Of a stretch of DNA of 64,000 bases, positions 42,208-42,774 are shown one piece after another. Numbering within the stretch: the stretch's first letter is position 1; the number at the start of each line of letters is the position of its first letter. Source of the stretch: Actinoplanes octamycinicus (GTDB taxonomy: Bacteria > Actinomycetota > Actinomycetes > Mycobacteriales > Micromonosporaceae); the NCBI RefSeq assembly GCF_014205225.1, contig NZ_JACHNB010000001.1, forward strand, positions 8,909,501-8,973,500. Direction: 5' to 3'. The notes under the pieces were generated by a model. The model did not search any database and was not told where the DNA came from. It worked only from the letters and a program-made list of their open reading frames with translations. The translations under genes were made by a program, and so were the position numbers.

Positions 42208-42298
42208 CCCGGTCTCCCTCTGCTGGGAGCTGTCTCTTGCCGGGGTGTACCGCACCCGTCCCGGACCGGTTCATGATTCTTTCCGGGATCCTGTGCAG

Positions 42299-42369
42299 AG
42301 ATCGCAGCCGGATTCGAACCGGCGTGAACCGCTTTGCAGGCGGCCTCCTGACCACTCGGACATGCGATC
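42299..42369 (-). tRNA. tRNA-Cys (GCA)
   Basis: 71 nt without CCA. Acceptor GATCGCA/TGCGATC with discriminator U73 (the Cys identity base), 3-bp D stem with GG in the loop, anticodon stem GCCGC/GCGGT with loop CTGCAAA, T arm GCCGG-TTCGAAT-CCGGC. Fully paired cloverleaf. Last of three tRNA genes in one orientation behind the attenuator. Confidence 0.9.
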
Positions 42370-42414
42370 GTGCTCGCCTTGAAGAGAGCCTTGCGGCGCC
42401 CTTGAAGGCGATCG

Positions 42415-42495
42415 TGCGGGCGGCAGGATTCGAACCTGCTCAGCGAAGCACCCGGTTTACAGCCGGGCCCGACTCTCCAGCGTCGGCGCGCCCGC
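42415..42495 (-). tRNA. tRNA-Tyr (GTA)
   Basis: 81 nt without CCA. Acceptor GCGGGCG/CGCCCGC with A73, 5-bp D stem CCGAC/GTCGG, anticodon stem CCCGG/CCGGG with loop CTGTAAA, an 11-nt variable region and T arm GCAGG-TTCGAAT-CCTGC. The variable region is on the short side for tRNA-Tyr. Confidence 0.88.
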
Positions 42496-42516
42496 GTGGC
42501 GTGAGCTGCCACGCTG

Positions 42517-42590
42517 TGCCCTCGGCGCGATTCGAACGCGCACCACCGGCGTCCTCAACGCCGGGCCTCTGCCAGTTGGGCTACGAGGGC
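42517..42590 (-). tRNA. tRNA with anticodon GAG (Leu), class I architecture
   Basis: 74 nt without CCA. Acceptor GCCCTCG/CGAGGGC with A73, D arm with GCC/GGC, anticodon stem CGGCG/CGCCG with loop TTGAGGA (GAG, reading CUC and CUU), variable loop of only 5 nt (GTGGT) and T arm GCGCG-TTCGAAT-CGCGC. All stems pair perfectly, so it is not decayed. Bacterial tRNA-Leu normally has a long variable arm; this one does not, so its charging enzyme is uncertain. Confidence 0.85.
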
Positions 42591-42605: not shown

Positions 42606-42643
42606 AAAACAAAAACCGCCATTCCCGTACGCGGGAACGGCGG
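42606..42643 (-). terminator. Rho-independent terminator of the tRNA attenuator
   Basis: On the minus strand, a 12-bp stem (arms 42632-42643 and 42616-42627, one G-U pair) with a 4-base loop, followed directly by TTTTTGTTTT (42615-42606). It lies between the leader ORF and the first tRNA, only 16 bp before that tRNA, so transcripts from the upstream promoter must pass it to reach the tRNAs. Confidence 0.93.
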
Positions 42644-42678
42644 CGCGAAGCTCGCGAGCGGTCTCAGCCGCGCCACCG
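42638..42678 (-). promoter_or_regulatory. Predicted antiterminator pairing
   Basis: CGGTGGCGCGG (42678-42668, leader codons 12-15) can pair over 11 bp, two of them G-U, with TCGCGCCGCCG (42648-42638). The second strand includes half of the 5' arm of the terminator, so the two structures exclude each other. A ribosome that reaches the leader stop covers the first strand; one stalled at codons 3-6 leaves it free. Confidence 0.75.
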
Positions 42679-42711
42679 GTCCGGGGCGAGATAAAGGCAG
42701 GTGCACAGCAT
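42664..42711 (-). CDS. Leader peptide of the tRNA operon, MLCTCLYLAPDRWRG
   Basis: 15 codons, ATG at 42711 with GAGGAG eight bases upstream and TGA at 42666-42664. Codons 3 and 5-8 are TGC, TGC, CTT, TAT and CTC, that is Cys, Cys, Leu, Tyr, Leu. They are read by exactly the three tRNAs encoded downstream (GCA, GAG, GTA). CTT and TAT are rare in DNA this GC-rich, which argues against chance. The ORF ends 20 bp before the terminator stem and its 3' end forms the antiterminator strand. It is best read as a sensor of charged tRNA, not as a functional peptide. Confidence 0.8.
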   Translation of the reverse strand: MLCTCLYLAPDRWRG

Positions 42712-42745
42712 GATCGGGTCTCCTCGGGAGCTCGGAACTGCGTCC

Positions 42746-42774
42746 AACCTATGTGGCCCGCCCCGGACCGGCAA
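42746..42774 (-). promoter_or_regulatory. Promoter of the tRNA operon
   Basis: On the minus strand TTGCCG (42774-42769) and TAGGTT (42751-42746) are separated by 17 bp, close to the actinobacterial housekeeping consensus. It lies 10 bp after the stop of the propeller gene and about 35 bp before the leader start. Confidence 0.65.

Follow-up and report, generated by a model that had tools for sequence, protein, structure and literature searches.

A region on the minus strand of the window (the whole 64,000-nucleotide stretch of Actinoplanes octamycinicus DNA analysed here, part of a 10.28-Mb genome in one contig) is, with a probability that we put at about 0.84, a ribosome-mediated transcription attenuator that controls an operon of supernumerary tRNAs. 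A leader ORF with a ribosome-binding site, codons cognate to the product, a terminator and an antiterminator that co-varies with it are all found in this region, and this structure gives good support to the predicted attenuator action, in which a shortage would bring read-through. The match between leader codons and array tRNAs, the co-variation of leader tail and terminator arm, and codon changes at two loci lacking a tRNA all argue for the attenuator interpretation put forward in the original prediction. The three tRNA genes of the window are one case among at least 77 leader-array pairs that form a family. As far as our literature search reaches, leader-peptide attenuation would here be seen in a tRNA operon for the first time, and so would the simultaneous sensing of many tRNAs by one attenuator.

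Organization of the trio locus and proposed mechanism

Read 5' to 3' on the minus strand, the locus consists of promoter-like boxes, a Shine-Dalgarno sequence, a 15-codon ORF, a terminator-like hairpin, a T-rich tail and three tRNA genes. The predicted leader ORF (42664..42711), which encodes MLCTCLYLAPDRWRG followed by a stop codon, was read directly from the sequence together with its Shine-Dalgarno AGGAG (42720..42724), and is kept in nine further genomes. Its codons are ATG CTG TGC ACC TGC CTT TAT CTC GCC CCG GAC CGG TGG CGC GGC TGA, of which TGC3, TGC5, CTT6, TAT7 and CTC8 are the putative sensing codons; CTG at codon 2 is unreadable by a GAG anticodon under strict pairing. Downstream of the terminator lie, as had been stated, genes for tRNA-Leu(GAG) (42516..42590), tRNA-Tyr(GTA) (42414..42495) and tRNA-Cys(GCA) (42298..42369), all on the minus strand; this 75-nt tRNA-Leu(GAG) is without the long variable arm of the 84-nt core tRNA-Leu(GAG). 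A ferric-reductase-like gene (PF01794; 40864-42255) lies directly 3' of the trio, and by eye a similar gene apparently lies 3' of the tRNAs at three other loci (L043, L048 and L126).

The predicted promoter boxes are present by eye as a -35-like TTGCCG (42769..42774, minus strand) and a -10-like TAGGTT (42746..42751, minus strand) with a 17-nt spacer, but a sigma-70 consensus scan returned no promoter-like site for the trio leader, so that the trio promoter is an assignment by eye. Similar to the trio -35-like block is AAATGCGTTGCCGGTCC, which precedes the leader of a second array in the same genome, and a loose -35-like motif lies, as a raw count, upstream of 41 of 49 non-redundant leaders. 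The hairpin (42615..42644, minus strand) resembles an intrinsic terminator, has a T-rich tail that runs to about 42606 and is conserved in relatives; it comprises 13 pairs and not the 12 originally described. Between 42200 and 42900, three terminator-like sites were counted on both strands, against 0.6 expected from shuffles. The Rfam scan of the window gave two matches, both tRNA, with the T-box family unmatched; in a scan of 14 array loci, the 150 matches listed of 197 were tRNAs and one RNase P RNA, again with no T-box.

We propose that RNA polymerase would transcribe a short ORF whose codons form a checklist of the downstream tRNAs. If this ORF is read quickly and in full, the ribosome at the stop codon would cover the last codons (...RWRG and stop), the terminator would form and the tRNAs would remain unmade; if an aminoacyl-tRNA is scarce, a slow checklist codon would hold the ribosome upstream, the last codons would pair with the emerging 5' arm of the terminator, termination would be prevented and the array would be transcribed. 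Several codon kinds in one leader would then constitute an OR gate over the array tRNAs, and since the exact place of a ribosome held upstream of the tail should make no difference, long leaders should be able to list many codons. Leader translation, the sign of the response, the stand-by role of the array and tRNA damage or depletion as its natural trigger are inferred.

Conservation of the trio leader and loci lacking one tRNA

Relatives of the trio were drawn from a search of 150 related genomes, among which nine further genomes of the genus carry this leader in front of tRNA-Leu(GAG)-Tyr-(Cys). The leader, TAT at codon 7 and the terminator occur in all ten trio-family loci, and codons 9-15 read APDRWRG in every one. 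The original idea that the leader samples the operon's own tRNAs stands for TAT7 (10/10 loci) and for Cys at codon 3 (9/10, L041 being the exception), but not for Cys at codon 5, which occurs in the window alone, the nine relatives having H, Y, S, Y, Y, S, R, R and D. Across relatives, leader codons, antiterminator pairing and terminator co-vary, which is the check that the original prediction had called for.

Four loci without tRNA-Tyr or tRNA-Cys give a mixed answer as to whether codons change when a tRNA is lost. At L041, which has Leu and Tyr and no detected tRNA-Cys, the Cys3 codon TGT reads TAT (Tyr); it is the sole one of the ten trio-family loci without tRNA-Cys and also the sole one without Cys3. 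At L126, where Cys stands alone with no detected tRNA-Tyr, the leader is MCRVCCTPDRWCG, and relative to the leader of L058 (MCRVCYAPDRWCG; Tyr and Cys) a TAT reads TGT. Two loci do not fit: L048 has kept two Cys codons with no tRNA-Cys detected, and L051 (genome G041), with an in-frame TAG in the leader tail and a truncated tRNA-Cys, looks like a decaying unit.

A family of leaders and tRNA arrays

A second array in the same genome, outside the window (G000:C1:9276027-9277845), contains 20 tRNAs behind a leader of 49 codons (MRWPIASMSQREMLRGASAPARSGRPQAALIMDLPLPSESKRDPEWWRG and stop) with a promoter block, tail and terminator similar to those of the trio. Codons for Cys, Tyr, Phe, His, Asn and Thr are missing from this leader, and the array is likewise without such tRNAs as far as detected; there are mismatches, in that no tRNA-Ile was detected to go with its Ile codons and the tRNA-Val of the array has no Val codon in the leader.

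Sixty array regions were selected from the tRNA places of the related-genome search, and a leader rule was run on 91 loci; it called for an ORF that is at least nine codons long, has a Shine-Dalgarno score, lies no more than 900 nt from the first tRNA and ends in a stop codon 8-70 nt before CCGCC...GGCGG plus TT. The rule yielded 76 distinct leaders, identical ORFs being counted once, and left 20 tRNA clusters leaderless. Six of these 20 have a leader by eye (L002, L042, L052, L105, L126 and the decayed L051), six resemble core tRNA genes and eight stay leaderless, two of the eight being one downstream stretch of a leader-fronted array. For the statistics, the doubtful L049 and L050 were removed and L002, L042 and L052 were added by eye (n=77), while L105, L126 and L129 carry leaders and stand outside this set. 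The 77 leaders are spread over 63 genomes, of which 54 belong to the same genus and nine to other genera or to a second family (f13), and L129 is a leader with tRNAs downstream in one more genus of the same family. Their arrays range from 1 to 31 detected tRNAs. Short examples include a Trp-Gln-Tyr-Cys array behind MYCWQQPCHYPGPIGRRS, Trp-Gln-Tyr arrays behind MRRWQYPYLVLTGRRS and MQRWQYQQTVATGRRS, and Pro-Ser-Met-Tyr, Leu-Leu-Ser-Tyr and Leu-Thr-Leu arrays behind MSFYPSYEPGRWRC, MSYLPSLESSLEHERWSG and MTLQALRLLDRWRC, respectively.

Applied to 24 core tRNA cluster starts of the same genome with 900 nt upstream, the rule found no leader, and no leader of this type was found at three plasmid arrays of other actinobacteria (L153, L154 and L155). 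A strict tail pattern gave two matches among 397 genomes of the order and two among 394 of the class; these counts are no measure of spread, because the pattern demands TAG and so misses the window leader (TGA), a reversed control pattern matched more often, and both samples hold hardly any genomes of the genus. Of the four loci with the strict pattern, L129 has tRNAs downstream, and L130, L131 and L132 had none within the 3 kb read. A similar pattern occurs in genome contigs at five Actinoplanes loci and one Parafrankia locus, the latter devoid of tRNAs.

Leader codons follow the tRNAs of their own arrays

We compared the content of leaders and arrays after removing the start Met and the last four residues, re-dealing the arrays among the leaders. 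Of 549 array isotypes, 522 are present as codons in their own leader, and 12 of the 27 missing ones are Met, whose place the start codon may take. Mean isotype coverage per array is 0.961, against 0.678 +/- 0.019 when permuted (z 14.8, n=77), and the fraction of leader residues with a matching array tRNA is 0.644 against 0.445 (z 16.2, n=77). Similar results were obtained for leaders less than 50% identical (n=50; coverage 0.958 against 0.694, z 11.7; residue match z 12.6), for arrays with five isotypes or fewer (n=22; z 7.0 for coverage and 7.7 for residue match), for all rule-found leaders (n=76; z 13.6) and for rule-found leaders below 35% identity (n=38; 0.971 against 0.729, z 9.1), the redundancy filter lessening the kinship among loci without removing it. 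Given the isotype, the isoacceptor also matches more often than in permutations in the non-redundant set (0.688 against 0.607 +/- 0.012, z 6.5), and leaders tend to be longer where arrays have more isotypes (rho 0.75, n=77), reaching up to 58 codons. Leaders are thus matched to their own arrays as firmly as comparative sequence allows.

The match is not complete. Against the detected array tRNAs, 618 of 2004 leader-body residues are unmatched, and the match is weak at some early positions (for example, position 5: 0.42 against 0.40). From residue -8 upstream the dependence on the array is clear, whereas the final six residues show little or none, which is what one would predict were the antiterminator made by the last codons. 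TAT makes up 34 of 51 Tyr codons in leaders and 18 of 355 in genes filtered for GC3, a contrast that this filtered gene set overstates; in unfiltered genes, the share of TAT among Tyr codons is 0.06-0.11, that of TGT among Cys codons is 0.22-0.28, and CTT/(CTT+CTC) is 0.08-0.32, ranges that depend on the choice among overlapping ORFs.

This codon match bears on whether the leaders could instead be general sensors of translation stress, in which any slowing of the ribosome, by antibiotics, starvation or ppGpp, would open the array and codon identity would be secondary. The same geometry would answer any stall, leaders reach great length, and the Anabaena trn operon is reported to be induced by ribosome-targeting antibiotics (PMC10272220); however, a generic sensor needs no codon match, whereas the codons follow each array's tRNAs and isoacceptors, and we regard this explanation as unlikely. 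As to what would trigger a codon-specific attenuator in nature, tRNA damage or depletion seems likelier than charged tRNA lowered by starvation, since extra tRNA genes would be no cure for a want of amino acids.

Array tRNAs as a possible stand-by set

The array tRNAs are divergent extras next to a complete core set. This core set, as detected by ARAGORN at the tRNA-place loci, comprises 52 tRNAs for all 20 amino acids, including the 84-nt Leu(GAG), Tyr and two Cys. The 23 tRNAs of the 20-tRNA array and the trio are about 46-84% identical to the best core tRNA with the same anticodon, and the anticodon loop differs from core in 18 of the 23, the Cys and Tyr loops of the trio being the same as core loops. 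As in the trio, the Leu tRNAs of the 20-tRNA array have no long variable arm (for example, a 75-nt tRNA-Leu at G000:C1:9277141-9277215).

Replacement of damaged tRNAs is our preferred reading of the purpose of this system. We suggest tentatively, at slightly less than even odds, that the arrays are stand-by replacement sets with bodies and anticodon loops that may be nuclease-resistant, one of them with its own RNase P RNA, and that the codon-checklist leader would deploy them once any listed tRNA is destroyed or depleted by tRNase toxins, defence systems or synthetase inhibitors. If this holds, the system would be a multi-input, self-referential feedback loop that evolves codon by codon with its array.

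Leaders and arrays could also be relics, now silent, of phage- or plasmid-borne tRNA arrays that carried such control. The arrays are accessory and resemble phage and plasmid arrays in general organization, HNH-like ORFs occur at five loci, and one leader has decayed (L051). Against this, searches of two collections, of phage and of plasmid records, gave no match to the trio region, leaders follow array content across 63 genomes, and up to 10 loci share neighbouring ORFs; the content tracking and the shared neighbours look like selection in place, and we consider silent relics very improbable.

A proposed switch between terminator and antiterminator

Returning to the attenuator reading, the proposed antiterminator would pair leader codons 12-15 (CGG TGG CGC GGC; 42667..42678, minus strand), over the span CGGTGGCGCGG, with a 3' half TCGCGCCGCCG (42638..42648, minus strand) that overlaps the 5' arm of the terminator. 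Computation recovered the predicted 11-bp pairing between these codons and the arm, at -30.8 kcal/mol including shorter outer pairings. Across the family, the last eight codons plus stop bind their own terminator 5' arm more strongly than swapped arms (-24.07 against -21.91 +/- 0.30 kcal/mol, z -7.2, n=74; non-redundant set -23.59 against -21.17 +/- 0.38, z -6.4, n=49), which is the tail-arm co-variation that the original prediction had sought in relatives. Codons farther upstream bind the arm far less (-12.35 against -23.87 at 38 loci). By eye, a tail-arm U-A pair of L058 becomes C-G in L126 with both sides changed, the tail from TGT to TGC and the arm from CAC to CGC. An element like an intrinsic terminator lies between leader ORF and first gene in the window, where it was computed, and at the 76 rule loci, for which the Shine-Dalgarno score and the terminator-like pattern were built into the rule.

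Folding of the trio leader indicates how a ribosome would throw this switch. With a ribosome on the stop codon the terminator remains (-26.9), and with a ribosome at Tyr7 and the 5' arm alone made, the antiterminator forms (-24.7). In the complete RNA with a ribosome-free leader end, the terminator (-43.8 kcal/mol) is favoured over a forced antiterminator (-35.7 kcal/mol), and it is still favoured with a ribosome held at Tyr7; the switch must therefore be kinetic and decided during transcription, and the mutual exclusion of the two structures would be co-transcriptional. The gap from stop codon to terminator arm is 16-32 nt (median 24, n=74).

These folds and this spacing speak against a response of opposite sign, a positive feedback in which expression of the array would require enough of its own tRNAs for the ribosome to complete the leader. 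Such a scheme would likewise couple leader codons to array content, but a ribosome that has reached the stop codon hides the tail, so that nothing hinders the terminator, and the antiterminator needs a ribosome upstream, so that we give this arrangement scarcely any weight. That the leaders are chance ORFs before ordinary terminators or processing hairpins is hardly credible: short ORFs are common and the whole trio leader folds no better than shuffles (z -0.85; 33/200 as good), yet the permutation results on content match and tail-arm pairing contradict it, and none of the 24 core cluster starts has such an ORF.

Relation to known systems

Ribosome-mediated attenuators control amino-acid biosynthetic operons such as trp, his and leu. 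The model of a race between ribosome and RNA polymerase (PMC1183508) and actinobacterial examples at trp, with candidates at ilvB (PMC1262725), have been described, and the leaders reported here are like them in having a leader ORF with regulatory codons, an antiterminator and a terminator (PMC1183508, PMC1262725). Unlike biosynthetic attenuators, the product here would be tRNA and not enzymes, and many codon kinds share one leader; because the antiterminator 5' half is the ORF end itself, codon position would matter little. Leader-peptide attenuators of aminoacyl-tRNA synthetase genes (pheST, leuS and trpS), named in PMC1262725, are similar in that sensing of a charged tRNA adjusts its supply; they sense one amino acid, and the regulated gene is the synthetase.

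Among accessory arrays, the Anabaena trn operon is a supernumerary array of 26 tRNAs that stays silent until translational stress turns it on, and differs in being controlled by a DNA-binding repressor, TrcR (PMC10272220); the main text of that paper contains neither 'leader' nor 'attenuat' (0 occurrences). Mycobacterial, phage and plasmid tRNA array units are likewise dense and accessory (PMC5966550, PMC12803027), the main texts of these two papers containing 0 occurrences of 'leader', 'promoter' and 'attenuat', and differ in that the three plasmid arrays that we read have no such leader. Phage tRNAs that counter tRNA-cleaving defences are spare tRNAs with altered anticodon loops (PMC10264068); ours are chromosomal and stand behind a leader that would sample codons. 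The accessible text of a survey of premature terminators (PMC2965389) has 0 occurrences of 'tRNA gene' and 'tRNA operon', and 99 tRNA genes are given for Actinoplanes SE50/110 in its genome paper (PMC3364876). In agreement with the original statement, no leader peptide controlling tRNA genes is described among the open-licence matches listed by our literature search, subscription papers lying mostly outside it. Such a leader would be a legible record of the tRNAs that the cell monitors, so that the role of bacterial tRNA arrays becomes testable; it would also provide a naturally occurring codon sensor with several inputs, and its sequence signature could be used to look for stand-by tRNA sets elsewhere in bacteria.

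Accessory features of the arrays

A search for a linked protein gene revealed no universal partner of the arrays, and found shared neighbourhoods, with neighbouring ORFs common to groups of up to 10 loci, and an ORF that by the look of its sequence resembles an HNH endonuclease in tRNA array gaps (L078, L079, L081, L090 and L107); the plasmid arrays L153 and L155 carry annotated HNH genes. By look, an EF-G-like GTPase ORF (L150:5369-7396; G000:C1, near 9.273-9.275 Mb) faces the end of the 20-tRNA array. By a loose pattern, 15 of 74 arrays (for example, L060, L075 and L096) contain, between leader and first tRNA, a GA(G/C)AACTCCACAG-like element, a putative boxA, which by eye resembles GAGAACTCAACAG in two rRNA leaders of the same genome; run on those two rRNA leaders, the element pattern gave no match. 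The leader-fronted array of 31 tRNAs (L111, genome G022) holds a complete second RNase P RNA (L111:4883-5249), and among 66 genomes searched G045 also has two RNase P RNAs, its second copy lying at G045:C119:688-1046; in both genomes the second gene is the lower-scoring copy.
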